Below, piece by piece: positions 6,101 through 40,771 of a stretch of 64,000 bases of DNA; the stretch's first letter is position 1; the number at the start of each line of letters is the position of its first letter. Source of the stretch: Closterium sp. NIES-65 (Eukaryota > Streptophyta > Zygnematophyceae > Desmidiales > Closteriaceae); contig CANXME010000897.1 of assembly GCA_948144175.1 (NCBI GenBank), forward strand, positions 1 through 64,000, written 5' to 3'. The notes beneath the pieces are model-generated. The model searched no databases, had not been told where the DNA came from, and was given only the letters and a program-made list of their open reading frames with translations. Position numbers and translations under genes: made by a program.

Positions 6101-9100
6101 TTTACCGGCTCGCAAAAGGCTGTTGTGATTTACAGCCCATGCTACAGTCCAGAATCATCTCACCATGGGCTGCCAGTTGCTGTCAAGAAGCACGATGGCC
6201 GCTTTGAGGTCTCGGTGCAGCAGCATGCGTCCCATGCCGTGGTGCAGGTAATAAAAGAGTTGTTTTGAGACGTCTCAAAACAACACTTTTATCACGTAGC
6301 AGCATGCGTCCCTTGCTGTGGTGCATTTAGTGCACCGCCTCCCTCACACAACCCTGCTGCTGCTACCCGGTTCTCGCGTGGACACAAGAAGAAACTCACT
6401 CACCATGGGCTGCCAGTTGCTGTCAAGAAGCACGTTGGCGGCTTTAAGGTCTCGGTGCAACAGAGTGCGTCCCATGCCATGGTGAAGATAGTGCACCGCC
6501 TCACACAACCCTGCTGCGATCTGCACTCTCCTCGCCCAAGATAACCCACTCGCTGCCCCTCCCCCTCCTCCTCCTCCTCCTGCTCCTCCTTTGCTCTTTG
6601 TCTTCTTCGCCTTGCGTTTCTCGCCCTCTGACCGCACTCCCTTCCCGCCACCCCCTGCCTTGCTGCGCTTCCCCTGCCCTGCTGCTTCTCCTAATTTCGC
6701 CTCCCTCAGACTACCCAAACTCTCTTGCACCCCAACCGCCTCTTCCTTTCCAATTAGCTTCTTCCCCATCCCTTCTCCCTCCTCCTCTGCTCCCGCCCCA
6801 TCAGGCACTCTCTCCTCCTCTCCTTCCTCCCCCCCTTCCTCTTCCTCCTCCTCCACTTCCTCCTCTTCTTCCTCCCCATCTCCCCCCTCTCCCACCATCC
6901 CCCCCTCCCGTATCGCCTTCAAATACCCTTCCAAACTCCCTCTACTCAGCAACGGATAGATCAACATTCTCATGTTCCTTTCTATGCAAAACCCAAGCAG
7001 CTGGACAATCTTAGGGTGATTCACATGAGTCAACGCACTCATCTCCCCTTTAAACTCCGCCTCACCACTCTTACTCTTCCGCATAACCTTAATCGCCACC
7101 TTCTTTCCCTCCAGCAACCTCCCCTTGTACACGCGTGCGAACCCCCCACACCCAATCATATTCCGCTTCGCAAACCCATCAGTGGCAAGCGCTAGCTCTG
7201 CATAAGCAAACGCCCGAGGCACCAGCGGCAGATTGGCACAACCTACACCGGGAATCACAGTTCCATTCGACCCCACAGACCCGCTCCCCCTGCTGCTTCC
7301 TGCCCCGCCCAAGCCTCTCACTCCCAGCTTCCCTGCAATCCTGTGTCCTGCCACTGCCAGCACTGCTCGCTTACCCCGGGTACGAGTTACAGACGAGGAG
7401 GCGGAGGATGAAGAGGGGGAGGACGAGGCGGGAGGGACGGCAAGACCTGCAAGCCTTGCCAGGGCAGCAGCAGCAGGGGAAGCGTGAGACGGCTTCGACG
7501 CGTGCTGGTTCTGGTTAGAACCACTTTTGTGGCTGCTGGTGCTGCTGCTGCTGTGCGCAATGCGGGCACGCGAGGGCGAGTGTGAGAGCGAGTGAGAGGA
7601 AGAACGGTTGTGCTTCCCGGGGCGGGTGCGAGAGGGAGACGAGGAGTTGCTGCTGCGATGCCAGAAGGTGGAGGCACGCAGGAGAGCAGCGCGACGGGGG
7701 ACAGCAGCAGCAGCAGCAGCAGCCTGGAAGTCTCCCCCTTCTTCTTCCCTGCCTGTGTCAGCAGTGGAGTCGACAGCAGCGACAGCGGCAGCCGCTGCGG
7801 CAGCAAGAGTGGCGTTGGCATCTAGAGTCCTCCCTCCTGCTGGTTCTTCGCCTGCCATTCCCCCCTCCCCCCCCCACATTTCGTTGGCATTGCTCTCGCC
7901 CCCATGCATATGAGGCAATGAAGCAGCGGATTGTGCGGAGGAGGAGGAGATGGAGCTGGGAATCATGTTGGGAGAAGGGAGAAATTCGCCTGCGAGATGC
8001 TTGCTGGGTGCGTGCTTGGTCAAGCGCATGCTGCGAATGCCAGCCTTGGAGAAGAAAGGGGTGAGAAGGGAGGAGCCAGGAGTGCGGACGGGGACGGATG
8101 GGTGCCGAGCGGTATTACTACGTCCCGCAGCAGCACCACTACCACTAGTACCACCAGCAGCAGCAGCAGCAGCGGCGGCGGCGGCGGCGGCGGCGATTTC
8201 CCCGCGCGTTTTCATACCCAGGGCACCATCTGTGGTGCTTGCTCTGTGTGCCAGCATCTCCGCTCTCCGCGACAAAGGGCTCACGCTCCTGCTGCTGTTA
8301 CCGCTGCTCGCGGCACTTGCCGCCCTGATGCTAACCAAATCTTCACTACTTGACACCGCCACCATGCCTCTCCCACTCCCACTCCCACTCCCACTCCCAC
8401 TCCCACTCCCACTCCCATTACTCTCCTCCACTCTGCCCCCCCGCCTGCTCTCTGCTCCCTCTCCCGTGCTGCCGATTCCCCTCCCTGCATCGTCCCCATT
8501 GCTGGTTTCTGCTAACCAAGCCTGGGAAGGTCCACCAATCTCCGAGGCATCTCCCATGCTGTTCCTGCGGCTGCGATCCATACTCATATTGCTGCTCCTC
8601 CTCCTGCTCCTCTCACCCCTGCTGCTGCTGCTGCTGCTGCCGCTGTCGCTGCTCTTACCAGTGCTGGCGCCAATGCTGGTGCTCTGTGCTCGTCTGCTTG
8701 TTGCAAGCCCAAGCCTGTAGCTAATCTCCCGTATTACGGAATCAGCACCAGCGGCACCAGAAGGAGCAGAACCATGGGTATAAGGGTCGCCGATACCGCC
8801 GCGATTTTTCCCTTCTCCTTCCTCCTCCCAATCCTCATCCTCCTCCTCCTCCTCTTCCTCCTCCTCCTCCTCCTCCGCCTCCTCTTCCTCCCCTGTGACT
8901 CCCATCAGCTCTTCCAGCTTCAATGGGGGAGGCCGCCGTCTAACTTCCCCGTCACAACCACCACCGCCGTCACAAGCAGCAACAGCATCACCAGCAGCAC
9001 CACCACTGCAGTCACGAGAATCGAACTGTTCATCCCCGTTCGCATCCGTCCCCCCTTCCTTCTCCCCAGCCTCCCCTCCCCCGCCTCCCGCCCCCTGCGT

Positions 9101-9682
9101 GCCTCTCGCCAGGCTGGCACTCCGGAACGACGCGATTCGCGCGAGCGTCAGCGTGCGCAGCTGCTGACTCCTGCTGACGTGGCCACTGCTGGATCCGCTC
9201 GCGTTTCCATATAATCCACCCACGTGGCCCACGTGGTGTCCGTTCCCCTGACAGCTCGAACCCTCTCCTTCTGCTGCTTGACACGGTGCTGGGCATGCTG
9301 CAGTACATGCTGCAGTACATGCTGCGTGCCCAGCAGCTTCGCCTGCTGTGCAACTCAGCCCGCCTTCCCTGCTCCGGCTAGAACCGCTAGAACCGCTAGA
9401 ACCGCTTCCAGAGAGAGACGCTCCGTGTGTTGTTGAGTCACTCGGCGGCAACGGCAACGGCGGCTTTTGCTTTAGAGAGGACGCGTGAGAAGCTGAGGTG
9501 AGCTCACGTGATGTTGGTGGTAGAGGAGGTAGAAGAGAGAGTGACTCTGCGATAGTTGAGGGATCATCATCATCAACCGTTGTTGGGTCCGCACCATTCT
9601 CGCCACCATGCTCACCAATCCCATGCTCACCACTCCCCAGCCCATCTGAACCCCGCCCTGCATCGTCCCCCCCCCGCGCCAC
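3109..9682 (-). CDS. RLK/Pelle-type protein kinase, three exons
   Basis: Probable Ser/Thr kinase, inferred exons complement(3109..3369, 5213..5443, 6404..9682), all phase 0 with GTGAGT donors and CAG acceptors, giving about 1,256 residues. Exon 1 has some 820 residues of low-complexity Ser/Gly/Ala/Glu sequence, then the kinase domain: glycine loop IGCGGFARVYKG (third Gly is Ala), VAIK lysine, HRDLKAAN catalytic loop. Exon 2 supplies LADFGLA, GTLGYMAPEY and DAYSLGIVLLEIITG. Exon 3 supplies the C-lobe ending near DPAFRPP. A Glu/Lys/Gly-rich insert of about 130 residues splits the lobes between GSLEGYLK and LSWARRVQIA. No signal peptide or membrane segment is visible, so it is receptor-like in the kinase only. 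The start at 9682 is provisional: the upstream open frame ending at 9627 is probably the true N-terminus. Introns contain several partial copies of exons 1, 2 and 3. Confidence 0.82.
3430..4800 (-). repeat. degenerate partial copies of kinase exon 3 in intron 2
   Basis: At least seven fragments resembling the 5' part of kinase exon 3 (SMQVEAIVDPCLRG region) lie in intron 2, at about 3443-3500, 3553-3620, 3660-3800, 3875-3903, 4190-4471, 4540-4595 and 4745-4800. The 3660-3800 copy extends to the AAAAIMCL region. They carry small deletions and point changes, so none can replace the functional exon at 3109-3369. Confidence 0.85.
4202..4471 (-). repeat. 27-bp tandem array, ten copies, derived from exon 3 acceptor
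   Basis: Ten head-to-tail 27-bp units, nearly identical (one C/T variant in unit 3). On the minus strand each unit encodes ALPKLRSMQ in frame and contains the CATGCAG acceptor of kinase exon 3 followed by the first exon codons. The array ends in a short match to the next exon codons (VEA) and then diverges. Confidence 0.97.
4893..5000 (-). repeat. partial copy of kinase exon 2 (3' end)
   Basis: The minus strand encodes MDPSRDEDNNLVVW followed by a GTGGGTGAG donor-like sequence, matching the end of functional exon 2 (DPPPDEDNNLVVW, 5213-5270) and its following intron. A degenerate palindrome (5027-5050) lies between this copy and the functional exon. Confidence 0.85.
5592..5747 (-). repeat. 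truncated duplicate of kinase exon 2
   Basis: Encodes LADFGLALFLEEGGEQGEVQ and on through GTLGYMAPEY and DAYSL with its own CAG acceptor at about 5747, nearly identical to functional exon 2 but cut off after DAYSLEI, losing VLLEIITGRRAIEMD and the donor. Part of the sequence between the two copies resembles polypyrimidine intron. Joining to this copy would truncate the kinase C-lobe unless another donor is used. Confidence 0.9.
6031..6133. repeat. approximately 28-bp tandem repeat, four copies
   Basis: Four imperfect units of the type AAGGCTGTTGTGATTTACC plus GGCTTGC in kinase intron 1, immediately downstream (plus-strand sense) of the G-rich stretch and next to the exon 1 end duplicates. 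Confidence 0.9.
6155..6362 (-). repeat. two partial copies of the end of kinase exon 1
   Basis: The copy at 6162-6250 encodes the catalytic-loop region ending NWQPM with a GTGAGATG donor-like site, but HRDLKAAN has become HRDLKAAI, losing the Mg-coordinating Asn. A second fragment, 6299-6360, matches the preceding codons (VHYLHHG region). The two are separated by the palindrome at 6251-6292. The functional version is at 6404-6540. Confidence 0.88.
6251..6292. repeat. 42-bp imperfect palindrome, TTTTGAG family, centre ACGT
   Basis: The 18-bp core TTTTGAGACGTCTCAAAA (6263-6280) is perfect. The symmetry extends to 42 bp around the same centre with one mismatched pair. It interrupts a duplicated piece of kinase exon 1. 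Confidence 0.97.
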
Positions 9683-10419
9683 TCGCTCTACCCAGCCTGC
9701 TTCTACTCATCGTCCGTTTCCACCCCAGTCCCCCCCTGCTCCCTCCGCCTCCTCCTCCTCCTCCTCCTCCGCCTCCACCACCACCTACAGCAGCACCGAA
9801 AGTGGTAGCACGAGGAAACATTCCCACTCTTCTCGGCACCTCCTCCTCCCCTCCTTCCCTCATCCCCTCCGCGTGTCTCACAACGCCCGCCCCCATAGTC
9901 ACAGATCTGGGGAAAGCAGCACCAGCCGCACCAGAAGCACTGTCAGTTAACCCCCCCATGCTGCTGTTGTCATCCCACGGCGTGGCAAGCAGGCGTTCGG
10001 CCAGACGGGTGCCTTGAAACCCTTGCTTCCGAGCAAGCAGATTCGCAACCGCAGAGTCACTAACCCCCCCAGCAGCAGCAGCACCACCACCACCCCCGCC
10101 ACTGCCGCCGCCATAAACAACAACACCCGTTCCGCCCGCACCTCTCATCGCCGCTCCCGATTCCCCACCACCGGTTCTCACACCAAAATCTCTACCAGCA
10201 GGCGCGGATCGAGAGTGTACGAGGGCTCGGCGGCAGGCGGAGATGCGGGAGGTGAGGAGGTTGCTCTGGCGGGAGAGGGAGAGCGCGGAGAGCTCCCCCA
10301 CGGCTGCTGCGACCTCTGCCGGGGCCATCATGGCCTGTGCCACGCGCTGTAACTGGATGATGTGCCGCACTGCCTCGTGCCACCGCTTGCGCGCTGTTAT
10401 GCTGCCGAGAGATGCGGGA

Positions 10420-10451
<32 letters not shown>

Positions 10452-12365
10452 GCTGGTGCTGGTGCTGCTAGCAGCACCACCCTTGGAGCCGTTCCTTCCC
10501 ACAGCATTCTCGTCGTGACTGCTGCCTGCACTGTTGCTGTCTTTATGTGTCTTGCCACTCGCTTCCATCGCAGATGCCTGCTCCAATGATAAACGCTCTT
10601 GATCTGCGAACGTTTTCTGGGAATTCTCGGAAATCTCTTGATCAGGAAATGACACCCTGCGCCCTCTGCATCTCCCTGCTCTCTCCCCTTCCGTTTTCCT
10701 TTCACCTCCCTCCTCCTTTTCCTTTCGCTTCTCATCTCCCTCCCGCTCTCCCTCTTCCTCCTCTTCCTTTCGCTTATCCTCTCCCTCCCCCTCCTCCTCC
10801 TCTTCTTCCTCCCCCTCCTCCTCCTCCTCCTCCTCCTCCTCCTCCTCCTCCTCCTCCTCCTCCTCCTCCTCCTCCTCCTCCTCCTCCTCCTCCTCCTCCT
10901 CCTCCTCCTCCTCCTCCTCCTCCGCCGCCGCCGCCGCCGCCGCCTCCTCCTTCTGTTGCTGTTTCAGGCTTGGGTGATGCAAGTTCGTGAGGACTAAAGA
11001 TGGGGTGGAGGTGGGTGAGGTAGAGACGGGATGAGTACGTGGAAGCGTGGGCTCGCCGCGAGAAACGGAGGAGGAGGAGGAGACGATGGAGATGCAAGAG
11101 GGGGTGGAGGATGATGATGATGAGGAGGAGGAGGAGGAGGAGGAGGAGGAGGAGGAGGAGGAGGAGGAGGAGGAGGAGGAGGAGGAGGAGGAGGAGGAGG
11201 AGGAGGAGGAGGAGGAGGAGGAGGAGGAGGAGGAGGAAGAGGAGGAGGAGGAGGAGGAGGAGGAGGAGGAGGAGGAGGAGGAGGAGGAGGAGGAGGAGGA
11301 GGAGGAGGAGGAGGAGGAGGAGGAGGAGGAGGAGGAGGAGGAGGAGGAGGAGGAGGAGGAGGAGGAGGACAACGACGAGGAACAGGTCATAGCGACGGAG
11401 CTAGTAGGCGTGTTGTCATGGTGAGATGCAACAGAAGATGAGGACGATGAAGACGATGAGGACGATGAGGACGAGAAAGACGACGAAGTGGAAGGAGAGG
11501 AAGAGGATGAAGTGGAAGAGGAAGAGGAAGAGGACGAACAAGCGGGTAGCTTGCTTCTCAACGCGTCACCCGTGCTCTGGCTCCGCCTGTGATGGCTCCT
11601 ATCCACCCCACGGATCTTCCCATACAGCTCTAGATCCATCTCGCCACTCACACTTCGATTCTCGCCCCGCTGCGTCCTCCCTTCCCTCCTTCCAGATCCT
11701 CTCTCCCCTCCCCTGTCCTCGTCCTCCCCCTCATATTCCACCTCTCCTTCCTCTCCGCTGCTAGGCCCGTTTACCCCTGCCGCTTCCCCCCCCTGATTCT
11801 GCCATAGCTTCTCCTGCTGCTGCTGCTGCTGCCACGCGGCCCACGCGATGCTCCCTACGTCCGCCGGAGCCACCTTTCCCCCCGGCGTTGCTCTCCCCGC
11901 AGATCTGCGCTCGCGCCCGCCGGCCCGCGCGGCCGTTTTCCGCTCGCCTTCCACGTTCAGGCTTACCGGACCAGATCGCACGCGCCTGTGCCGCGGGGGG
12001 CTCAAGTCCACGTTGACCACGGGGATCCCGCCGCGCATGGTCGTTTTGTGACAGTTGCTGCCAGTTGTAACATTGGAGCTTTTCGCGATCCTTCGCGACG
12101 GCGACGATATCGCCGCACGGATTGACGACGACTCTTGTTCGTCGACCCGTACCCGCGATTTCCGGCGATCATCACGGCGGAGGGTTTCAATCGGATCGGC
12201 GTCGCGTGGGTTCCCATCGCGAGCTGGAGACGCGCGCATCGCTCTGCTAGTACTACGAGTAGTACGAGGCCCTGGGTCCGCTCGGCCGCAGCGGTACGGT
12301 GCGACTGAAGGATGGTGCGGATGGGGAGGAAGGGCGTCAGCTCGCGACGATCCGACGGTGCACAT
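9627..12365 (-). CDS. probable N-terminal part of the kinase gene, out of frame
   Basis: A 912-residue open frame with natural-looking non-repeat blocks (for example GGIPVVNVDLSPPRHRRVRS and TARKRWHEAVRHIIQLQRVA), a Ser run of over 100 residues, a Glu run, and Gly/Ser blocks. It ends 55 bp inside the kinase frame, which starts at 9682. The two frames meet at a nine-base C run (plus strand 9667-9675), so a one-base length change there would join them into a protein of roughly 2,000 residues. I infer one gene with either a sequencing or assembly error or a real frameshift. No conserved domain is recognised. Candidate starts are 12365 and in-frame Met codons further in. It is divergent from the F-box gene 2.6 kb away. 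Confidence 0.6.
10790..10935. repeat. (CTC)n triplet array encoding poly-Glu on minus strand
   Basis: About 120 bp of almost pure CTC/CCT triplets followed by CCG triplets. In the upstream kinase-gene frame it reads as poly-Glu preceded by poly-Ala. It is complementary in sense to the GAG array at 11112-11370. Confidence 0.97.
11112..11370. repeat. (GAG)n triplet array encoding poly-Ser on minus strand
   Basis: About 250 bp of nearly uninterrupted GAG triplets (one GAA variant near 11237). On the minus strand it reads TCC and gives the long Ser tract. With the oppositely oriented array at 10790-10935 it forms a long inverted repeat in the transcript. Confidence 0.97.
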
Positions 12366-14931: not shown

Positions 14932-16977
14932 ATGACGTGGCCGAGTAGTTACATCCCTCGCTCCTCCACCAAACTTTCCGACTTACCCGCTGACGTCATC
15001 TATCTTGTCTTGAAGCGACTTCCCCCCAGCAGCGTGCGCCACCTCTCCGCCTGCAGCACGGGCTGGCGAGCCGCGTGCAGCAGCGACGCGGTTTGGCGAG
15101 CGCTGTACGCGGCGCGGTGGGGCGGAGACGTGGCGGACTGGGACGGCGCTGACGACCCGAGCCGTCGCGGCAACGCTGACGTTGACGTTGACATTGACGT
15201 TGACGGTGGCAGCGTTGACTCTGCTTCTGCCGGTTCGTCTCCGACGGAATCCTTCCTCTCCGCATCGCCACCGTCGCCTACAGCAATTATCCTGCCGCGT
15301 GCCGCTGGTTCCTATCGTGCTGACTCGAAAGTTACTAAGGTGAGACCACATGTGGCCCCATGTGGGGACCCATGTGGGACCACATCCTGTCGTGCTTACG
15401 GTATGGCCGCATGTGGCCCCATGTTGGGCCATGTGGGGCCATGTGGGGCCATGTGGGGCCATGTGGGGCCATGTGGCCCCATGTGGGGCCTTGTGCAATC
15501 TATGTGGCCTTGAACGTACTCGTAATTCTGAACATTCTATAAGCCTCTCCCGTCAGCTACGTCCAAATTAATTTCATACCCCACAACATCCCCTCCCTCC
15601 CTCTTTCCTCCTCTCTCCCCACTCTAAACCTTCCCGTCCCCGTTCAAGCAACCATCTCCGCTTCTTCTTCGCTCACCCCCACTTTCCCCCCTTTCCCTTC
15701 TCGCCCGCACTTCCATATTCCTCCCCCCGTTCCCCCGCAGCTCCCCCTACCCCCCTCCTGGCGCAATCCCGCTTCGGAGCTCCCCCTCCCCCCCTCCTGG
15801 CGCCAACGTTTCCGCCAGCGCGCAGCAGCAGTGGGGGAGACGGCGGCGCTGCTGACGTCACGAGTGACGTCAGCAGCGCGCCATGATTCGCTGGAGGTGA
15901 AGGAGTACCAGGTCGCGCTGGGCCTCCTCGCGTGCTCGCGCCTCGTCTTTGCTGACGTGGCGAGGCTGCTTCTTAGTCCGCAGCTGTCGGTGTTACTTAA
16001 TCTCTTGGGGGTGCATCATGCATTGATGAACCTTAGAGTTGAGGTGAGATAGAAGGGTTTGGACGAGAATGGATGCGGGGGGGAAGAGTGGGTGGGAGCG
16101 GGGGGAGGAGGGGAGGGGGAAAGGGGAGAATGGTGGGAGAAGAGAGCGAAGGTTTGGGGAAGAGGGGGGGGTGCGGAAAAAGAGGAAAGTGGTTGAAGAA
16201 GGTAGGTGAGATGGATGCGGGGGGGGTGGGGAAGCGGATGGAGCACATGGTGAGTGCAAGGGTAGCACAGGTGTGCATGAGTTAAAGGATAAGCTTGGGC
16301 CATCTCGTAATGTGAGTGCAATGTGCACTCGGGTACTGTCAATGCATGCATGCAGTTCTGAGCACTCTGGGAACATGTACCGCACTCTGAGCACTCTGGG
16401 AACATGTACCGCACTCTGAGCACTCTGGGAACATGTACCGCACTCTGAGCACTTGGCACACTCTGACTCAGCACCAGTTTCGCCCTTTTCCCTGCCCTTT
16501 CTTCTCTACCCCATTTCCCCGTCGCAGCCGTCTCTCCTGCTCACTGCCCTGCAGGCCTCGGGAACAGCAAGAAGGGTGGTGTGTGTGCGGTGGTGGGTGC
16601 TGGGAGCATGGGGCCACGTGGGATTCCGAATGAGAGACGAGATGCTAACCGCCTCTGTGCAACTCAAAGATTTTGCTGCTGCAGCTGCTGCTGCTGCTGC
16701 CACTGCCAGTGGTGATGATGGCACTGGTGCTGCTCTTGCTGCTGCCAATCCTCCTCCTGCCGCTCTTTCTGTAGCTGCCGTTGCCGAACCTGTTCCCCCT
16801 CGTCCCGAACCTGCTACCTCTCGTGCCGAGCCTGTTCTCTCCGCAGCAACACCCGAGGCTCGGAGGCTGTTGGGAGTGGTGTGCAGGGGTGCAGTGCACG
16901 AGGTAATGCGAGTGCAGATCGCAGCTGATTTCACCACCAGTGCATGGGTCGCAAGGGACATGCACTCTCAGCTTTAG
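14932..16977 (+). CDS. F-box protein, three exons
   Basis: Inferred exons 14932..15339, 15780..16043 (or from 15741) and 16555..16977, all phase 0, about 364 or 377 residues. Exon 1 encodes an F-box near residues 16-62 (LSDLPADVIYLVLKRLPPSS, then WRAACSSDAVWRALYAARWG), the SKP1-binding module of SCF ubiquitin ligases. Exons 2 and 3 encode a C-terminal region with SWRQRFRQRAAAV, EYQVALGLLACSRLVFADV, RWWVLGAWGHVGFRMRDE and RGAVHEVMRVQIAADF, interrupted by an Ala/Pro-rich insert. No LRR, kelch or WD repeats are seen, so the substrate is unknown. The layout resembles a small plant F-box family, but I cannot name the orthologue. Donors are GTGAGA; acceptors CCGCAG and CTGCAG. Intron 1 has a CATGTGGGGC array and intron 2 a 29-bp array. 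Confidence 0.8.
15345..15495 (+). repeat. CATGTGGGGC-type tandem repeat in F-box intron 1
   Basis: Ten- to eleven-base units of the type CATGTGGGGC are repeated at least six times in tandem (15420-15490), with looser copies upstream from 15347. It begins a few bases after the GTGAGA donor. Confidence 0.92.
15741..15806 (+). repeat. 39-bp in-frame duplication at F-box exon 2 acceptor
   Basis: The sequence starting CTCCCCCTACCCCCCTCCTG after the CAG at 15738-15740 is repeated 39 bp later after an AG at 15778-15779. Both read LPLPPSWR in the same frame, so use of the first acceptor adds 13 residues. Confidence 0.85.
16360..16450 (+). repeat. 29-bp tandem repeat, three copies, F-box intron 2
   Basis: Three near-identical 29-bp units (GAGCACTCTGGGAACATGTA core) inside intron 2, starting after CATGCATGCATG. 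Confidence 0.93.
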
Positions 16978-17340
16978 GTGCCTCAGTTTAGCCTTTTTGA
17001 GCCATGAATTTATAGGGGGACAGGGTCCCTTCCCTTGGCCGTTTCATGGGAGCAGGTTGTATCACACGTGCTGAGTAATCAAGTAGGGTAGGTCAAGCAT
17101 TCTAGGTCCCAGGAGCTCATTTTGCGGTTGTATTGTACATATACGGTGGTATGGTAGTACAAACTGGTTATGCCACAATGAAAAACAAGCTGTACCTACG
17201 GTAGAAATGTTCTGCTGGAATGTGTTTAGTGTTGAATGACTGTCACATAGTGTACACTTGCACCAAGGTGTTTGAAGAGGATAAAAAATAACACCGCATT
17301 CACCAGTTAATTTCCAAGCAAAGAACACTTTCCAGATACG
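16978..17340. other. 3' flank of the F-box gene, no gene seen
   Basis: No supported coding region. It probably holds the 3' UTR of the F-box gene. No strong repeats. Confidence 0.5.
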
Positions 17341-17499
17341 TTACGCATTGTGCACAGCAGCAGCATCAGTATCTTTTCTCACTACTAGAGGCGCTTGGGA
17401 TAGAAATACCCTGACATGGAGGCACGGTATGAGCACCAAACCAGAGAAAAACACAGATGCACTGCACTGCACTTGCTGAATCAAGTGCAGCAGAGCAGC

Positions 17500-18115
17500 A
17501 AGCAACCGCCACAACATCACTCCCGTGGAGGAGCAGAGGAGCAACGGCTGCATTATCAGCAGCAACACTAGTAGCAGCAGCTGCTGCAGCTGCATGGTCA
17601 GCAGCAGCTGCAACTGCATGGTCAGCAGCAGCTGTGGGCGGCTCTTCCCGTGGAGGAGCCGACAGCTTGACTCTCCAAGCCACACTGGTTTTCTAGCCAA
17701 CTCAGAAACAGAGGCAGCAGCAGCACTACATACGATACATCATGCGGGCTGCTACTCCTGTCGAGGAGCAAGCGGCTTGACTCTCCGAACCACAACCATC
17801 TTTTGAGGCGCATAGAAAATCTTCCCGTGGAGGAGCAGAGGAGCAACGGCTGCATGATCAGCAGCTGCATGGTCAGCAGCAACACTAGTACCGGTAGTAT
17901 AGTATACATATATCATGTGGGCAGCTCCTCCCGTGAGGGCGCAGAGTGCTTGACTCTCCGAGCCATAACTGGCTTTCTAGTCGACTCAGAAACAGAAGCA
18001 GCAGCACTAGTAACGCTAGTACATACATCATGCGGGCTGCTCTTCCCGTGCAGGCGCAGAGGGCTTGACTCTCCGAGCCACAACCGTCTGTGGCACAAAG
18101 TCTATTGTATGCACC
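17500..18115 (+). repeat. degenerate tandem array, units of about 110-130 bp
   Basis: Three to four units share the blocks CATGCGGGCTGCT, CTTCCCGTGGAGG and GGCTTGACTCTCCGAGCCAC (near 17640, 17748, 17925 and 18030), with variable insertions of GCAGCAGCAACACTAG-type sequence. A degenerate TTTTGAGGCGC palindrome half (17801-17820) lies at one junction. No reading frame is preserved through all units, so I treat it as non-coding. Confidence 0.85.
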
Positions 18116-18361
18116 GTTAGTATGACATACCGCGGAGAGGGAGGAGGGGAGAGGAAGCAGGGGAGAATAAAAAGGAGAAAGGGTGCCAAGCAAGGGAGAG
18201 GGAGGCAGAGAGGAAAGTTGAGGTGAATAGAAGGGGAAGGTCAGCTCTCGGCAGCATGGGTGAGTTACAAGAGAGGAGTTGTCAAAGACTGTACACTGTA
18301 ACGAGTGTAGAGTGTGGAATGTAGAAGAGGGATGGATTGGGGATTCTGTTGCCATCGGAAA

Positions 18362-18402
18362 AGAGATCGAGAAGAAGAAGAAGAAGAAGAAGAAGAAGAA
18401 GC
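18362..18402. repeat. (GAA)n microsatellite
   Basis: Eleven to twelve AAG/GAA triplets in a row. Confidence 0.95.
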
Positions 18403-18610
18403 ATAGGCAACACAACACCAGCCAGTCATATTGGCGCGACTCCAGCAAGTCCAAGCAGCGCCTTTTGAGAATTCTCAAAAGTCGCACCAAGAAGAAGAGC
18501 ATAGGCAACACAACACTAGCAGGTCGTGAGGTGTATTTTGAGGCGCCTCAAAAGTCGCACCAAGAGAAAGCATAGGCAACACAACACTAGCAAGGCCAAG
18601 CAGCGCCCAT
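18395..18610 (+). repeat. palindrome-separated tandem duplication A
   Basis: Three copies of a segment containing GCATAGGCAACACAACAC and CTAGCA/CCAGC are separated by two perfect palindromes: TTTTGAGAATTCTCAAAA (18463-18480) and TTTTGAGGCGCCTCAAAA (18536-18553). Each palindrome is followed by the same GTCGCACCAAGA sequence. Confidence 0.93.
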
Positions 18611-18719
18611 GTGATTCCAAGTGACAGATGTGGTCCCATCTGAATCTAACCTGACAGAAACTCGAAACGAGGAGTGTCTGAAACAGCAGCAGCTGCGCAG
18701 TGCAACAAGAAAAGGAAAG

Positions 18720-18900
18720 GGGGGGGTGGGGGACGGGAAGGAGAAAGGGAGAACGGGAGAAAGGGGAATGGGGGAAGGGGGAAGGAGAGGGAAGAAGGGA
18801 TAAGGAGAGGGAAGAATGGATAAGGAGAGGGATGAATGGATAAGGAGAGGGAAGAATGGATAAGGAGAGGGAAGAAGGGGGAAGTGGGAAACGGAGGGAC
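18720..18900. repeat. G/A-rich tandem repeat
   Basis: GGATAAGGAGAGGGAAGAAT-type units of about 20 bp are repeated roughly five times (18790-18880) inside a purine-only stretch. Confidence 0.85.
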
Positions 18901-18919
18901 GACGGGGAAATGGGTGATG

Positions 18920-19035
18920 AGTAAGGGAGAGAGAAGAGGTGTCGACAAGGCTGGCCTAGCTACTTTTGAGTCGCCTCAAAAGTCACCTTAAGTAAGGAAG
19001 GAAGAGAGAAGAGGCGTTGATTAGGCTGGCCCGGC
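18920..19035 (+). repeat. palindrome-separated direct repeat B
   Basis: Two copies of a segment (GAGAGAAGAGGTGTCGACAAGG and variant, followed by GCTGGCC) flank TTTTGAG-TCGC-CTCAAAA at 18964-18981. Confidence 0.92.
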
Positions 19036-19104
19036 TGGGCTGGAGTGGGAGCGAGACTTGAGCCACTGAGGACCTGTGATGTGCATGCCAAGACTCATCT
19101 CTTT

Positions 19105-19205
19105 CATTTCCAATGCAGCAAGCAGGGGGGACGCCTCTTGTTCTTGTTTTGAGACGTCTCAAAATCCAGTTCCGATGCAGCATGCAGGGGAAATGGCTCT
19201 TGTTC
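19105..19205 (+). repeat. palindrome-separated direct repeat C
   Basis: Two copies of a 40-bp segment (TTTCCAATGCAGCAAGCAGG / TTCCGATGCAGCATGCAGG, each ending CTCTTGTTCTTG) flank the palindrome TTTTGAGACGTCTCAAAA at 19147-19164. The second copy runs into the hexamer array. Confidence 0.92.
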
Positions 19206-19815
19206 TTGTTCTTGTTCTTGTTCTTGTTCTTGTTCTTGTTCTTGCTCTTGCTCTTGCTCTTGCTCTTGCTCTTGCTCTTGCTCTTGCTCTTGCTCTTGCT
19301 CTTGCTCTTGCTCTTGCTCTTGCTCTTGCTCTTGCTCTTGCTCTTGCTCTTGTTCTTGTTCTTGTTCTTGTTCTTGTTCTTGTTCTTGTTCTTGTTCTTG
19401 TTCTTGTTCTTGTTCTTGTTCTTGTTCTTGTTCTTGTTCTTGTTCTTGTTCTTGTTCTTGTTCTTGTTCTTGCTCTTGCTCTTGCTCTTGTTCTTGCTCT
19501 TGCTCTTGCTCTTGCTCTTGTTCTTGCTCTTGCTCTTGCTCTTGCTCTTGGTCTTGTTCTTGGTCTTGCTCTTGTTCTTGTTCTTGCTCTTGCTCTTGCT
19601 CTTGCTCTTGCTCTTGCTCTTGCTATTGCTCTTGCTCTTGCTCTTGTTCTTGTTATTGCTCTTGCTCTTGTTCTTGTTCTTGTTCTTGTTCTTGCTCTTG
19701 CTCTTGCTCTTGCTCTTGTTCTTGTTCTTGCTCTTGTTCTTGTTCTTGTTCTTGTTCTTGTTCATATTCTTGTTCTTGTTCCTGTTCCTGTTCCTGTTCC
19801 TGTTCCTGTTCTTGC
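19196..19815. repeat. (CTTGTT/CTTGCT)n hexamer array
   Basis: About 620 bp of six-base units alternating between TTCTTG and CTCTTG blocks, with a few TTATTG and TTCCTG variants. The long open frames across it (Leu/Phe, Val/Leu on plus; Asn/Ser-Lys on minus) are produced by the repeat. Confidence 0.98.
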
Positions 19816-20113
19816 TCTTTGTTTTGTGCAAGACAGCACCACCAGCAAGCTCGAAAACTAGACACCTTTCCAATTTACTCAAAAGCCACACGGAGTGCCT
19901 ACATGCACCCGCAGCAAGCACGGAAAGCAGCAAGCACGGAAAGCAGCACGCACGAAACGTTGAGGTATTCAACGGTTGCAAAAAGTAGGGTGAGACGGGG
20001 GGGGGAGAAAGAAAGGCGGCCGCAACGTAAAGGAAGACTCCCTGCGCTGCTTTGCACTCGAGTCGACTCAAACGCAAGGGAACGGAAGTCTGTCTGCGCT
20101 GATTCGCACTTAC

Positions 20114-20204
20114 CTACGTGCCGGTAGTGCAGCATCGCGCTCTGTTCTGCAACGGTGTGCGGGTGCTCCAGAGCTTCTGACACGCACACCCCCAGGAAAA
20201 GCTC
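20114..20204 (-). other. exon-like segment of 91 nt
   Basis: On the minus strand a CCACAG acceptor-like site precedes codons reading ELFLGVCVSEALEHPHTVAE then QSAMLHYRHV, followed by AG and a consensus GTAAGT donor. The composition is protein-like, but I do not recognise the family. A second copy lies upstream at 20285-20375 and is interrupted by a palindrome. It may be a downstream exon of the acidic-protein gene (20924-22894), which is on the same strand; that linkage is unproven. Confidence 0.45.
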
Positions 20205-20260
20205 CTGTGGCCGGGATGAGATTGCGATTGACAAAGGAGGGGAACGTGGCCTTGAGTTGA

Positions 20261-20380
20261 TTTCTGAGGCGCCTAAAGAATGAGCTCTGCTCTGCAATGG
20301 TGTGTCACTTTTGAGAATTCTCAAAAGTGCTTCAGTGCCTCTGTCACGCACACTCCCAGGAAAAGCTCCTGTGGCCCACT
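20261..20380 (-). repeat. duplicated exon-like segment interrupted by a palindrome
   Basis: This copy of the 91-nt segment reads ELFLGVCVTEALKH on the minus strand, then is broken by a 24-bp perfect palindrome (20306-20329, core TTTTGAGAATTCTCAAAA) that replaces a few bases, and resumes with the ACACACCATTGCAGAGCAGAG match. Stop codons result inside the palindrome. Confidence 0.85.
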
Positions 20381-20389
20381 TTTAGAGAC

Positions 20390-20570
20390 CTCGCAAAAAG
20401 CTTACACAAACCACTTGCCCCTTTTGAGTCGACTCAAAAGTCAAAAAGCTTACACAAACCGCTTGCCCCTTTTGAGTCGACTCAAAAGTAAAAAAGCTTA
20501 CACAAACCGCTTGCCCCTTATGAGTCGACTCAAAAGTAAAAAAGCTTACACAAACCGCTTGCCCCTTTTT
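20390..20570 (+). repeat. 47-bp tandem repeat, four copies, with SalI-centred palindromes
   Basis: Units containing AAAAAGCTTACACAAACC and GCTTGCCCC are repeated four times. Three junctions carry TTTTGAGTCGACTCAAAA (20422-20439, 20470-20487, and 20518-20535 with one mismatch). Confidence 0.97.
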
Positions 20571-20629
20571 GCTGGCTACGTTTAAATCGAGTTTTGAGAC
20601 GACGCAACAAGATCGCTAGACCCTGGCTA

Positions 20630-20945
20630 GTGGCTGGCAGCAAGCAATCCTAGTGGAATTTTCAGACTCCACCCTGACAGGACATCGCTGTTATATGGTC
20701 CTATGTTGAAATCACTTTTAAGAAATTCTCATAAGTGGAATTCTCAGTTCCACGGTCCACCCTGACAGGACGTGGCTGTTCTATGGTCCTCCTTGCAGCC
20801 CACCCGGGTTGTGTTTTGAGTCGCCTCAAAACACAGTTCACCCTGACAGGATGTGGCTGTTCTATGCTCCTCCTCGCAGCCCACCTGGGTCCCAGTTAAG
20901 TTGGGGGTTGTTTTCGAGAATTCTCAGAACCACCCTGGGCTGTCT
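20630..20945 (+). repeat. palindrome-separated tandem repeat D, three units
   Basis: Three units share CACCCTGACAGGA, GGCTGTTCTATGGTCCTCC and GCAGCCCACC. They are separated by palindromes at 20713-20737 (degenerate), 20811-20834 (24 bp, centre TCGC) and 20910-20930 (degenerate, GAATTC centre). Confidence 0.93.
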
Positions 20946-22894
20946 ACAAACAACAACCCAGGCGGACTGGTAGTTGTTCGGTAACCTACTGGCCGACTAG
21001 AGCCCCAATCAAGGGGCCGTGTGGGGACGAGAACGGGGGAGAGGATGAGAGGGATTAGCAGAAGTGAGATCAGGTTCCAAGAAGAGAGGATGGGAGGATG
21101 AGAGAATGAGAGGATGAGAGAATGAGTGCACGAATGAGTGGGAATGTGAGTTGGACAAGTGGAGTGGAGCGAAGCGTTATCGAGTTGTGAGGCGTGCAAA
21201 ACACCTCGAGCAATACCTACCGTTGCATGTGTGATGAGCAATGCTGCTTCCGTGCTCAGATGCATCTCCTTTTCTTTCTCCTTCTCCCTCTCCTTCTCCT
21301 TCTCCTTCCCCCTATCCCTCCCACCCACGCCATCGTGCAAGCTGCTGAAGCTACTGCCAACAGCCCCCTGTGCCACTCGTTTCACTCGAGAGAACGGCAG
21401 CTGGAACAAACCCGTTACTCCCAACGATGCTCGCCTCCCCTCATGCCCCTCATGTCCCTCATGTCCGTCGTGCCCCTCATGCTCATCCCCTGCATTGCCC
21501 TCCCCTTCCCGACTCCCGCTCTCCTGCCCATCCCCTCCCTCCCCCCCTCCTCCCCTCGCCTCCATTGCTTCTGCTTCCCTCCCCTCCCCCTCCCTCAAGC
21601 CGTCCCCACTGTTCCCCTCCCCATCTCCATCCTCTACCCCATCCCCCCGCTGCTCCTCCTCCCTCCTATGTGCACTCTCAGGCGCGGTAGTCCGCTCCGC
21701 CCTTGCCCTGCTCTTCTTCCCGTCTCCGGCAGCAGCAGAAACGCGCTTCCTCTTCTGCTCGCCCGCACCCTTTCCCTCTCCCAGCCCGTTCACGTTCTTC
21801 TGCCCTTCACTCTGTTCCTTCCCCAGTTGCCCCTGCCCCTGCCCCTGGCCCTGCCCCTGCTTCCCTTTAGCGCGCATCTCCTGCTTCAGCTTGCGTCCAG
21901 GCTCACGCACCCCAGCAGCACCGCCAGTGCTTCCAGGAGTGGCAGCCAGAGAAGGATCGTTGTCGCTCGGTGCCGCCGCCGCAGCAGCAGCAGCAGCAGC
22001 AGCAGAAGGAGGGGGAGCAGTCAACGCTGCTGCTGCCTTCGCAATACCTCCTCCACCTTCCCCTGTGAATGTCAAAGATTTAGCTGCTGCAGGGGACTTA
22101 ACTGCTGCTAGAGACGCAGTTTCTACTGCTGCTGCTGATTGTGACCTGGCAGCTGGGGATTTTGTAGCTCTGGGTTTTGCTGCGGGAGACTTCATCTTGG
22201 GCGACTTAGAGACCTCCAGAGAGGCTTTACTGCTGCTGCCCGGTGGGGTTCTCATAGCTGCTTTGCTGCCTCTGGTTGGAGTAGACTTCACAGCTCTTGA
22301 TCTGTCCTCCCGGATCCTTTCTTTTACTGGCCTACCCCTGCCGCCAGCAGCAGCAGCAGCACCATCTGTCTCCTCCTCGTCAGAAGAATCAGCAGCACCA
22401 GCCGGATTTGAAGAAGCAGCAGCAGCAGCCTCCTTCTCCTGTTCCTCCTCCTCCACCACATCAACATCCTCCTCTTCATCTTCCTCCTCCTCTTCATCCT
22501 CCTCATCTTCCTCCTCTTCACTCTCGCTATCGTCCAAAACAACCACTTCACAGTTGGCTGGTACCCCTCGCTTCCCACCTGCTGCAGTAAGGCCTCTCTT
22601 ACTGGCAACCCCGTTACAAGCCTTCTCAGCCTGGAGTCCTGTCTCGCTCCCATTCTCCAGTCCCCTTCCTCCATTTACCTTCCCGTACCCCGTTGAATTC
22701 CCTCCTCCCATCCCCCCCTTGTGTCGCCTGAGATCTTCCTTCCCCTCCTCTTCCTCCTGCACCTCCTCCTCCTGCTCCCCTTCCCCCTCCTTTTCCTCCT
22801 CCTCTTCCTCTTCCTCCTCTTCCTGTTCCTCATCCTCCTCCTCATCATCGCTATCTACTAAAATCACATCCGCTTCCGCTTCTCTCTCCGCCAT
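20924..22894 (-). CDS. acidic, probably nuclear protein with two SIM-like motifs
   Basis: Single open frame of about 656 residues from the Met at 22894. The N-terminus reads DVILVDSDDEEEDEE, and about residue 115 has EVVVLDDSESEEEEDEE: both are hydrophobic four-residue cores followed by Ser and acidic residues, the pattern of SUMO-interacting motifs. The middle is rich in SP/TP and Lys (KSPAAKPRATKSPAARS), the C-terminal half in Gly/Glu/Asp with HEGHEGHEG repeats, then a KEKEKEREKEKEKE segment. No catalytic domain is recognised; a chromatin or DNA-repair role is only a guess. The last 100 residues look like intron read-through: a GTAGGT donor lies after LLITHAT (near 21220), and the gene may continue into exons around 20.2 kb. 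The antisense frame is a Ser/Pro shadow. Confidence 0.6.
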   Translation of the reverse strand: MAEREAEADVILVDSDDEEEDEEQEEEEEEEEEEKEGEGEQEEEVQEEEEGKEDLRRHKGGMGGGNSTGYGKVNGGRGLENGSETGLQAEKACNGVASKRGLTAAGGKRGVPANCEVVVLDDSESEEEEDEEDEEEEEDEEEDVDVVEEEEQEKEAAAAASSNPAGAADSSDEEETDGAAAAAGGRGRPVKERIREDRSRAVKSTPTRGSKAAMRTPPGSSSKASLEVSKSPKMKSPAAKPRATKSPAARSQSAAAVETASLAAVKSPAAAKSLTFTGEGGGGIAKAAAALTAPPPSAAAAAAAAAAAPSDNDPSLAATPGSTGGAAGVREPGRKLKQEMRAKGKQGQGQGQGQGQLGKEQSEGQKNVNGLGEGKGAGEQKRKRVSAAAGDGKKSRARAERTTAPESAHRREEEQRGDGVEDGDGEGNSGDGLREGEGREAEAMEARGGGGEGGDGQESGSREGEGNAGDEHEGHDGHEGHEGHEGRRASLGVTGLFQLPFSRVKRVAQGAVGSSFSSLHDGVGGRDRGKEKEKEREKEKEKEMHLSTEAALLITHATVGIARGVLHASQLDNASLHSTCPTHIPTHSCTHSLILSFSHPPILSSWNLISLLLIPLILSPVLVPTRPLDWGSSRPVGYRTTTSPPGLLFVDSPGWF

Positions 22895-22979
22895 GACAGC
22901 CCTTCCGCGGCTCTCAGAGAGTCGGTGCTGCGGGAACCGTGTAGCACTCATCACTGGAAGCCGGGGCTGGTCGGACTAG

Positions 22980-24700
22980 AGAAATATAAATCTGACGGAA
23001 CAAGAGGCGATGATCGAAAAAGGAGAAACAATGGATGCCAGGGGGATGTCAGTATGCCTGGATCCGTGGACGTTTAGACGATTGTACGTCTCTAAACGGA
23101 GCAGAGCTGATTCGGAAGTTGCTGCTTCTGACGCCTGTAACACCTCCTCTACACTAGGTATGAGAGTCGCGGCACTCGTGAGCTAAAACTGCGACGTCTC
23201 AGCGGCACTGGAAACTCATGAAAGACGTTCTCAGAGGAGTGATTAAAGCCCCCAGAGAGACGTGAGAGAAACCGGAGGCTGGGTGGTGACCAAGTGCGTT
23301 AAGACTCTGCTGCGACAGGAGTCTTTATGACATGAAAAACTGGAACTTGGATCCTCTCGGGGCTTCACGTTAGCCTCTCAACCCCCTGCGGAAACCCCTC
23401 AGCCCTCTGTGTCCCCTAAGCCTGGCCAAAACCTCGGATCGAGCCTACCGACGAAATTTGGCTGGAATTTCAGTGGGAGGCGTGACAGGCTAACGGGAGC
23501 GCGAAATGTACCCTGAAGCGAGGGGCGAACGAGGCGGAATTACTGATAAGGATCGGATGATGTAGGAACGAATAGAAGCGGTTTGTGCGTGCTGCTGAGA
23601 CAATACACTGGCTGGAACTATGGCGGTGGGAGGAGACTAGGGTTCGAAAGGAAAGCCAAAACGGTAAGCAAGAAACGAAAATGTGGAGGGACGAAACGAA
23701 ATGTGTTGGCTTTTTACTGGGAGTTCGGGAAAGGGAATGGAAGAGCGGGAGGTCAAGAATGCAGCATGCAGAAGGACAGGGGGAGCCTACCGTGAGCTTG
23801 TAAAGCAATCGTCATAGCGATAATTCAAACTGTAGACGGGTTAATCCACATGACGAGGCTGTTTGTAGATTGCCTGACGCAGCCTGACCACAAGCTGTGT
23901 TGGCCAATCACGGTGATTTGAATGTGAGCCGCTTTGTCAGACCAAGAAATCCTGCCTCGAATTTGACGAAAACTTGACTGGGCCCAGTCAGGACAGCCAT
24001 CGAACCAGTCACGGGCGTTCCGAACTTCATTCCTTGGCTCGGTCATCACCTCCGGATTTTTCCAGGGTTTATTGGCGCAAGCCGAGCCTAAGCACACCTG
24101 GCAACAGTTTCAGTGTGAAACGAATGCACATCGAAGCTTTTAGTAACATTGTAGCCAGAGTGTCAAAGAGTCCCCCTACGGGCGAAGACGTCTTGAGGCG
24201 TTCGCGTGGCGTCGTTAATCCTGCAATCAATGCGCCAATGTAGTGAACGACCTCTTGATCACTCAACGTGTTGCAGTGGACTTTCTCCTGATCTCAAGCC
24301 CAACTCATAGAAGATGTCGTGGGGTTTTAGGACGCGGTTAAAGTACTCGACCGGGGGGAGATCGATCCGGTCACCGTACTGAAACCCCGCGTTTTGCATA
24401 CGAAAGGTACACAACCGTTTACAACCGCGCTAAAAACGATCCTGAGGCGATCGAATCTCCACTTTTACCGCGTCCTTATGTACGACCTCAATCGGCCTTC
24501 TTCCTTCGCAGGCTCCTAGACTTCTAGTCTCCGTATGTGTTTCAAAGAATTGCGTCTCGCAAACCGATATTGGCGTGCAGCTCTGCTTCGTGTCAGGAAC
24601 TCGCGAATCCAGTCGCATTCGTTCACCTAGACCACGCGTGCTCGTCCCGCTCACCCTTTTTATCAGCTGACGTATTCACTGTACCACTAATTCCGTGGTG
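22980..24700. other. intergenic region, no confident gene
   Basis: Divergent spacer between the acidic-protein gene (minus) and the transporter (plus). Two minus-strand frames, 24069-24266 and 23825-24097, have non-repetitive composition (VVHYIGALIAGLTTPRERLK; RNEVRNARDWFDGCPDWAQS) and could be a broken gene, but they are in different frames and match no family I know. Confidence 0.4.
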
Positions 24701-24800
24701 AATCTTCCACCAGCAGCAGTAACCGCAGCAGCCGCAGACTTTTGAGACGTCTCAAAAGGCAGCAGAAGTAGCCGCAGCAGCAGGAGCCGAAGCAGCAGGA
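24700..24800 (+). repeat. palindrome (ACGT centre) between GCAGCAG repeats
   Basis: A perfect 20-bp palindrome at 24739-24758 (core TTTTGAGACGTCTCAAAA) lies between two copies of a GCAGCAG-TAACCGCAGCAG-type segment, 170 bp upstream of the transporter start. Confidence 0.93.
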
Positions 24801-40720: not shown

Positions 40721-40771
40721 GTCTTGTAATGAAAAAAAAGTTAGAGTTTTCCCCTGTCTGCTCTCATACCA

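Follow-up and report, generated by a model that had tools for sequence, protein, structure and literature searches.

Very short palindromes dispersed with long flanking duplications in the nuclear genome of Closterium sp. NIES-65 appear to represent a previously undescribed type of mobile DNA

Enzymes acting in trans mobilise short elements with palindromes or inverted repeats in bacteria (REP elements, with RAYT) as well as in eukaryotes (MITEs). MITEs and TIR DNA transposons are characterized by a fixed short target duplication and by unique sequence between their terminal repeats. SINE-like retroposons mobilised by LINEs have a target duplication of variable length, a fixed 3′ end that is often tailed, and a transcribed RNA. 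Furthermore, palindromes are recombinogenic. Short palindromes of organelle and nuclear DNA have been described in Volvox carteri: there, nuclear copies are described as inert and as matching the repeats of the organelles, and the loops of 3-5 nt are mostly TAAA or TTTA (PMC2670323). The GC clusters of yeast mitochondria include GC42, a mobile palindrome of 42 nt that is bordered by direct repeats and is present or absent depending on the strain (PMC4478555).

The window analysed here is a stretch of 64,000 nucleotides (contig CANXME010000897.1) from the genome of Closterium sp. NIES-65, an alga from the sister group of land plants. A first-pass annotation had listed ten exact copies of the palindrome TTTTGAG-N4-CTCAAAA, and the scan recovered all of them (6263, 18463, 18536, 18964, 19147, 20309, 20422, 20470, 20814 and 24740), the one placed in the "20811 region" being located at 20814. 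Their number is indeed far above chance, with 15 window copies at ≤2 mismatches compared to 0.31 expected from shuffles. Among the degenerate copies previously proposed, those at 20518, 20592 and 20912 (called 20910) have ≤2 mismatches, those at 17801 and 20716 (5-base spacer; called 20713) were found by a looser scan of the window and that at 20261 was recognized by eye only, whereas 5027 is a lone TTTTGAG. The centres of the exact copies are those announced, i.e. ACGT (n = 3), AATT (n = 2), TCGA (n = 2), TCGC (n = 2) and GCGC (n = 1), and the extended symmetry could be located at 20306-20329 (24 bp) and 6251-6292 (42 bp). Once paired or degenerate arms were taken out, the window alone retained five lone arms of each kind, compared to 5.6 and 4.6 expected by chance; therefore, the unit is the palindrome and not the arm. 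On the same count, the idea that the arms are the terminal repeats of some larger element, facing inward, was rejected. As lone single-stranded DNA, 6248-6295 has a predicted fold of -14.7 kcal/mol (z -7.7); the window has no Rfam match at gathering thresholds. Its features are listed below, X designating the direct local copies found on both sides of a palindrome, and palindromes being entered without strand.

6219-6246, plus strand: X1, the 28-bp target duplication to the left of the 6263 copy, 26/28 identical to 6298-6325
6248-6295: palindrome copy (ACGT class) whose long arms are almost complete, core at 6263-6280 (scan, symmetry and fold)
6298-6325, plus strand: X2, the 28-bp target duplication to the right of the 6263 copy (repeat comparison)
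6421-6510, plus strand: paralogous empty site in a kinase-like ORF, with a single X and without palindrome
18463-18480: core, centre AATT, flanked by repeats 18390-18422 and 18489-18520
18536-18553: core, centre GCGC, flanked by repeats 18481-18521 and 18554-18592
18964-18981: core, centre TCGC, flanked by repeats 18920-18956 and 18995-19031
19147-19164: core, centre ACGT, flanked by repeats 19105-19146 and 19167-19208
20306-20329: palindrome, centre AATT, lying in the latter of a pair of diverged local copies, without immediate flanking repeat
20394-20565, plus strand: array of 48-bp period with four X (20394-20421, 20442-20469, 20491-20517 and 20539-20565) and three palindromes
20422-20439: palindrome 1 of the 48-bp-period array, TCGA
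20470-20487: array palindrome 2, TCGA
20518-20535: array palindrome 3, one mismatch
20715-20735: decayed palindrome with a 5-base spacer, flanked by repeats 20652-20702 and 20734-20790
20814-20831: core, centre TCGC, flanked by repeats 20751-20809 and 20832-20890
20912-20929: decayed palindrome, centre AATT, two mismatches
24740-24757: core, centre ACGT, flanked by repeats 24711-24732 and 24760-24781

The diverged local copies around the palindrome 20306-20329 (20163-20212 and 20327-20376) are 90% alike. A second full copy of 20000-21100 is absent among the matches listed. The 24740 copy lies about 170 bp before a folate-carrier ORF at 24930.

The genome-wide count suggested as a check in the first-pass annotation gave 30,327 places, copies from tandem arrays included, in the 874-Mb genome, compared to four for the reversed-pattern control; this thousands-fold excess is far from a chance-level count. 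Sampled copies lie on many contigs and, two duplicated loci excepted, have different flanks, which speaks against the origin of all copies from a single segmental duplication. Two arbitrary stretches, L144 and L145, contained no place matching at least 13 of the 14 arm bases. In a 264-kb sample (20 stretches of the same genome plus the window), the centre is self-complementary (TCGA, ACGT, GCGC or AATT) in 54 of the 60 exact copies, and the remaining centres look like the result of point decay. In IMG/VR viral contigs, by comparison, two of the 120 matches listed, not all of them independent, have such a centre. W-CG-S hybrid centres occupy 840 of the 30,327 places and, among the 100 matches listed, with array copies collapsed, comprise ACGC (n = 36), TCGG (n = 23), TCGC (n = 16) and ACGG (n = 8). 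The joining of two different templates as their origin is unsupported, since these counts fit point mutation in which transitions outnumber transversions. Other candidates concerned the source of the palindrome. A prokaryotic or viral source was rejected, as neither the IMG/VR nor the GTDB contigs matched the 24-bp form GACTTTTGAG-N4-CTCAAAAGTC. The 3′ end of tRNA was dropped because its spacing does not fit.

Two classes belong to a longer palindrome (outer box-N5-AG-N5-TTTTGAG-N4-mirror), and in the two classes that are resolved best, a full element spans about 54-56 bp with GCCATGG or CCACGTG as outer box. The N5 blocks vary among copies yet are complementary inside each copy, with a covariation of 0.811 compared to 0.216 ± 0.033 after shuffling and to ≤0.117 when slid. 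Comparison of the copies at the sequence level thus establishes that the free positions of the arms and the centre are complementary within a copy and different between copies. Both AG boxes are present in 3,335 of the 30,327 places; since about nine tenths of the places lack one or both of them, most copies are cut back or decayed. For the ACGT class, ACGTG-N12-TTTTGAGACGTCTCAAAA gave 1,054 matches (two-armed copies being scored twice; control, 0), with A and G at N12 positions 6-7 in 77/77 and 76/77 typed rows. GCGC copies have little or no symmetry past the core (11 copies in one set, three rows in another), many TCGA and GCGC copies are cut back at both ends, and the right arm mismatches the left one in eight of 20 copies picked for a complete left arm. 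These longer arm boxes, like the flanking duplications and arrays described below, were absent from the first-pass annotation.

The X-PAL-X arrangement, in which the palindrome (PAL) lies between two X, was found in 49 of 86 places drawn from four samples, compared to 494 of 12,804 random positions (3.9%), and, with a looser cut-off, in 23 of 28 isolated copies compared to 867 of 8,643 random positions. Among the 49 positives, X measures 23-104 bp, varying by site, and both X are identical in seven cases, so some insertions look recent. Identity between the two X drops with palindrome decay (Spearman 0.41, p 0.004, n = 46), as expected if both arose together. The test was negative in the 37 other places; decay, X shorter than 20 bp, long inserts and nesting account for some of these failures but not for all. 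The repeat-rich region at 17.3-21.2 kb contains eight exact copies, and the scores of six of them are reached at 13-27% of its positions. In the sample, 73 of 103 short-gap direct-repeat pairs have no palindrome between them, 25 have an exact palindrome in their gap, and the gaps of five others are also palindromic, four of them through a decayed copy of this family. No cut-site motif was seen by eye in 23 copies, two of which were aligned to the wrong repeat.

At two loci, paralogous empty sites (paralogs within the same genome and not orthologs from another strain) have one X and no palindrome. The kinase-like copy differs from its empty site by a net 79 bp, i.e. the 28-bp X and a 51-bp insert, and at locus L131 an X of 60 bp is present without any difference on either side of 23 bp, with local paralogs carrying one X. 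The best place in these empty stretches matches at most nine of the 14 arm bases. Since palindrome-free paralogs have a single X, the palindrome inserts with a long and variable target duplication, and the repeats and paralogs establish that copies are insertions with the target duplicated on both sides. Near-identical duplicates, C9/C1759 (1.25 kb) and C6/C1658/C347 (match table only), gave no palindrome-free allele; in C9/C1759, two palindromes are common and intact and a third is present in both but decayed in C1759. L128 and L132 are too divergent for judging palindrome absence. The miniature mobile hairpin envisaged in the first-pass annotation is favoured by the dispersed copies, the target duplications and the paralogous empty sites. 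As for its recombination or break site, the duplications do imply a staggered break, but the palindrome is what inserts and not a pre-existing break site, and its third suggestion, an RNA hairpin, may also apply; overall, that interpretation is partly supported.

X-PAL units are also found as tandem arrays, in which X outnumber palindromes by one, fully or nearly so in four of six arrays and partly in the two others. These arrays with one extra X suggest a route for minisatellite birth, from insertion through target duplication to expansion.

We consider it fairly probable that these palindromes of an algal nuclear genome are mobile elements of an ultrashort, non-coding family, inserted at widely staggered breaks and with the second arm rebuilt from the first. 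Regarding the enzyme and the intermediate, we infer that the two target strands would be cut far apart and their ends filled in, and that the mobile form would be a hairpin or a self-paired dimer. In each round, one arm would template the other, every new copy beginning as a perfect palindrome, and the palindrome would be joined to the filled-in ends either by break repair or by an enzyme provided from another source. X-PAL-X units would afterwards grow into minisatellites, and old copies would decay through point mutation. A more specific proposal, possible rather than probable, is that of a half-inheriting element: its arm would be rebuilt at each transposition, lineages remaining symmetric while drifting, with cuts made tens of bases apart by a putative dedicated enzyme and each insertion being the potential seed of a minisatellite; the places that go back to it in this genome would number tens of thousands.

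A hairpin RNA spread by retroposition seems unlikely, but it would account for several features. A LINE-type enzyme would nick the target and copy a hairpin RNA of 30-56 nt, the second nick lying tens of bases off; covariation would then result from selected pairing of the RNA, with the self-complementary loop serving as a kissing-loop dimer site. Conserved boxes with covarying pairs, copies with one complete arm and the other missing or cut back (the eight of 20 mentioned above) and target duplications of variable length, as for LINE-mobilised retroposons, agree with it. However, no A-rich tail or fixed 3′ end was noticed, one arm being complete in some copies and both ends being cut back in others, including many TCGA and GCGC copies; no target motif was seen by eye, and the five N5 pairs include eight G-U cells versus 25 unpaired ones, which gives no indication of RNA-level tolerance, although this argument is weak. 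Passive filling is a little less likely again: paired nicks would be filled in, generating a tandem duplication, and an abundant palindromic oligonucleotide would be captured at the junction without dedicated enzyme. Tandem duplications do arise from paired nicks with overhangs (PMC5730883, in excerpt), direct duplications at sites with a single-copy relative are found here, the palindrome-free repeat pairs indicate that duplication occurs alone too, and the lack of a visible cut-site motif is consistent with this. Nevertheless, one family dominates the palindromic gaps, and a steady oligonucleotide donor would still be required.

Later duplication, in which palindromes would be fragile sites inducing tandem duplication of their flanks after insertion, X not being a target duplication, would be in keeping with recombinogenic palindromes and with the existence of arrays. 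It is nonetheless improbable, since simple duplication of X-PAL would give two palindromes, yet isolated positives have two X and one palindrome, and the empty paralogs carry a single X and lack the palindrome. We regard as very improbable that hairpin-capped broken ends were fused later, leaving palindromes like those of replicated hairpin telomeres: such telomeres yield inverted-repeat junctions (PMC7861564, in excerpt), and conserved boxes with free yet symmetric positions would fit, but a six-frame search of the genome gave no match to the telomere-resolvase family PF16684, the control search matching in one of 14 genomes. Leakage of organelle palindromes into the nucleus, proposed for Volvox on the basis of organelle-like palindromes in nuclear DNA (PMC2670323, in excerpt), has an even smaller chance of applying here, target duplications and 30,327 places being ill-suited to passive leakage; no copy is present in 4 kb from the mitochondrial contig C1956 (best place, 10/14 arm bases), a stretch much too short for a decision. 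Conserved binding sites of a dimeric regulator would have dyad symmetry and fixed half-sites, but binding needs neither a self-complementary spacer, nor symmetric free positions, nor flanking duplications, which makes them the least credible reading.

Literature searches found no description of such a palindromic element, and the family has the appearance of a type of mobile DNA not described before. If this is true, very short mobile palindromes occur beyond organelles and bacteria, and this genome offers copies from recent to decayed in which the life cycle of an element would be readable; moreover, the covarying arms make half-inheritance directly testable from sequence alone. As short palindromic or inverted-repeat elements, the Closterium palindromes resemble REP/RAYT and MITEs. 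Compared to MITEs and other TIR elements, they have a site-dependent X of 23-104 bp (49 positives) instead of a fixed short target duplication, and their arms occur apart only at chance level (window alone). Paired-nick tandem duplications likewise duplicate the stretch between staggered nicks, but a conserved palindrome between the copies is not described in the sections available (PMC5730883). The replicated hairpin telomeres of Borrelia and Agrobacterium also give inverted-repeat junctions that are symmetric by construction; however, as excerpted, they are ends of linear replicons and not dispersed insertions (PMC7861564). LIMP, from Lobosphaera incisa mitochondria, is likewise an algal palindrome family with asymmetric stems but is mitochondrial and has 19 copies, stems made of pentanucleotide repeats and a fixed 7-nt loop (PMC4524435). 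GC42 is also a mobile palindrome bordered by direct repeats, whereas GC clusters, in the excerpts, are mitochondrial, change mostly in the loop and are flanked by AG or ACT (PMC4478555), the Closterium repeats (23-104 bp) being far longer than these typical 2-3 bp. Finally, the palindromes of Volvox carteri are also short, hairpin-forming and dispersed in non-coding DNA of a green alga, with nuclear copies, and are thought to be selfish (PMC2670323, in excerpt); the Closterium family differs from them by being nuclear and by its long target duplications, four self-complementary centres and covarying arms.

The palindrome TTTTGAG-N4-CTCAAAA appears, from comparison of its copies and their flanks, to be an insertion accompanied by a long target duplication of variable length, and this reading is well supported. 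The first-pass annotation had listed ten exact copies together with degenerate ones in the window; the exact copies and several of the decayed ones are present, far over expectation, and the strongest palindromes in its first 25 kb are mostly members of this family. The genome-wide search that it proposed yielded 30,327 places in the 874-Mb assembly compared to 4 for the reversed pattern, a count that includes tandem arrays (among those read, long ones at contigs C637 and C2069). In a 264-kb sample, 60, 25, 30 and 28 places match 14, 13, 12 and 11 arm bases, respectively, compared to 0, 0, 0 and 5 for the reversed pattern. This sample comprises the window and 20 stretches, 18 of which were chosen around known copies, and hence gives no density estimate; neither of the two arbitrarily placed stretches contains a copy matching 13 or 14 arm bases.

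The window is part of contig C896 of an assembly of 874,075,685 bases in 2,400 contigs, and carries the following features:

6344-9682, minus strand, kinase-like ORF
24930-27677, Folate_carrier ORF (Pfam)
30248-31471, UEV-domain ORF
35579-40894, 49413-52544 and 52580-54181, minus strand, copia-type polyprotein ORFs
57248-58204, Ty3-type gag

The single hit of the Folate_carrier ORF, at 90% identity over 97% of the ORF, is an unnamed protein from Closterium sp. NIES-54, and we take the window to be nuclear DNA from a Closterium close but not identical to NIES-54. Organelle genes occur many times in the assembly (cox1 on C1956, C241, C155 and C311; the psbA/psbD family on C525, C613, C1961, C2141, C2210 and others), in both orientations on several contigs, which suggests concatemers or assembly artefacts. 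Other palindromes were also encountered: (i) an identical 25-bp one, AGTCAAAGGTCAGCGACCTTTGACT, at 35449-35473 and 41063-41087, on either side of the copia ORF 35579-40894 and probably in the LTRs of this element, (ii) an isolated 34-bp one of different sequence, GCGCTGCTGACGTCACGAGTGACGTCAGCAGCGC, at 15846-15879, and (iii) a 44-bp one (CCTGTTCGGTTCGCC...) within a second, unrelated short element of about 80 bp (stretch L137, 6472-6551; C9:120472-120551), 95-99% alike on 18 other contigs among the matches listed.

Direct copies of the local sequence (X) flank nine of the ten exact copies of the window, the exception being that at 20309. Since 13-27% of positions in the repeat-rich 17.3-21.2 kb region score like six of its eight exact copies, this region alone would not prove an X-palindrome-X structure. 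Among the isolated exact copies of the 264-kb sample, 25/28 have flanking repeats under a loose cut-off that 25% of control positions also pass, 23/28 have each repeat at most 20 bp from the core (867/8,643 control positions), and 18/28 pass when a complexity filter is added (130/8,689 control positions). Three further sets, fetched with their flanks unseen beforehand, gave 7/20 for centre-decayed copies (strict count), 9/20 for ACGT copies with one long arm and 11/20 for full TCGA 30-mers. Under a common criterion, fixed after the four sets had been inspected and with duplicate loci L171 and L217 removed, the structure was found in 19/28 isolated copies and in 9/19, 9/20 and 12/19 of the others: 49/86 when pooled, compared to 494/12,804 control positions. 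In these 49 positives X measures 23-104 bp, and its two copies are identical in seven. The 103 short-gap direct repeat pairs of the sample enclose an exact copy in 25 cases, another palindrome in five (four of them decayed copies) and none in 73. X-X identity declines with palindrome decay (Spearman 0.41, p 0.004, n 46), which fits an origin of both X and the palindrome in one event. No cut-site motif was seen in 23 copies checked by eye, two of which were aligned to the wrong repeat.

Two loci have paralogs that carry a single X. The palindrome at 6263 splits a duplicated copy of the kinase-like segment, whose paralog at 6421-6510 has one X and no palindrome; the net difference of 79 bp is the sum of X (28 bp) and the insert (51 bp). 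In L131, another fetched stretch, a 23-bp insert separates two identical 60-bp X, and left flank plus X1, like X2 plus right flank, aligns to the same local paralogs carrying one X. The paralogous empty stretches of both loci match the arms at 9/14 bases at best. Near-identical stretches (98-100%), C9:117000-121200 with C1759:475324-479692 and C6:108800-109800 with C1658 and C347, are either haplotypes or recent copy-number variation; no palindrome-free allele was found in the 1.25 kb compared for C9/C1759 or in the match table for C6/C1658/C347. At about 478526-478563 of C1759 (in stretch L158), a 38-bp tandem duplication, missing from the C9 copy, lies beside the half-palindrome TTTGAGTCGA and may be a related event.

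The centres of the 60 exact copies are TCGA (n = 23), ACGT (n = 16), GCGC (n = 11), AATT (n = 4) and others (n = 6); in IMG/VR viral contigs, the centre is self-complementary in 2/120 among the matches listed. W-CG-S centres occupy 840 of the 30,327 places. With arrays collapsed, 100 such rows among the matches listed include ACGC (n = 36), TCGG (n = 23), TCGC (n = 16) and ACGG (n = 8), an order that places transitions ahead of transversions. These non-symmetric centres therefore look like decay, and the same order argues against hybrid centres arising by joining of two different templates.

In two classes symmetry extends beyond the core. For ACGT centres, 1,054 matches have ACGTG-N12 ahead of the core (each two-armed copy counting double; control 0), and 77 rows among the matches listed show 48 different N12 with AG at positions 6-7 (77/77 and 76/77). 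The right arm fits its own left 12-mer at at least 8/12 positions in 12 of 20 fetched copies and is missing or cut back, hence unmatched, in the other eight. GGTGAC arms mark the TCGA class (613 full 30-mers); in several copies they continue, by eye, towards TAACG and CCATGG, a layout as in the ACGT class. The pattern with both AG boxes occurs at 3,335 places (control 0); its three GCGC rows among the matches listed lack any extension. Across 32 distinct rows among these matches, seven position pairs (five in N5, two in the centre) form a base pair in 86.6% of cells, compared to 53.9 +/- 2.5 when shuffled. Covariation reaches 0.811, compared to 0.216 +/- 0.033 when shuffled and at most 0.117 when slid, the rows containing related copies whose relatedness is kept by the slid control and ignored by the shuffle. 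Changes on both sides occur at 7/7 pairs, a count that 197/500 shuffles also reach. At the level of the aligned copies, this comparison shows symmetric drift of the arms.

Decay and expansion can likewise be read from the copies. Six arrays have an X unit before the first and after the last palindrome (full or nearly so in four, partial in two), as expansion from X-palindrome-X would leave. Minisatellites with units like those of the window array lie at C637:866755-871916, C1532:593553-602055, C794:1022796-1023676, C1720, C1616 and C2069; palindromes were read directly in arrays at C637 and C2069 and in short arrays at C2100, C268 and C1873 only. A TCTTGT hexamer satellite of about 104 units (19198-19819) begins where X2 of the 19147 copy ends.

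We infer that a staggered break at the target would be filled in, that the mobile form may be a hairpin or self-paired duplex, one arm serving as template for the other, and that an enzyme or repair machinery would join it to the ends; a telomere resolvase was sought in the genome and none was found. Movement of the palindrome by retroposition and its capture as passive filler are less likely routes.

Within the open-licence literature, a scope that could miss work in subscription journals, the papers listed include no description of Closterium palindromes or of a palindromic insertion with target duplication, and no paper containing the core sequences was found. The comparison with known systems covered short palindromic repeats of Volvox carteri (PMC2670323), GC clusters of yeast mitochondrial DNA (PMC4478555), LIMP of Lobosphaera incisa mitochondria (PMC4524435), tandem duplications from paired nicks (PMC5730883) and replicated hairpin telomeres (PMC7861564). 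A word search of the main text of PMC10407611, which describes how genome size varies within the Closterium peracerosum-strigosum-littorale complex, gave no hit for "palindrom". Overall, as far as this search extends, the nuclear palindromic insertion is of an undescribed kind, and it is both real and very abundant.
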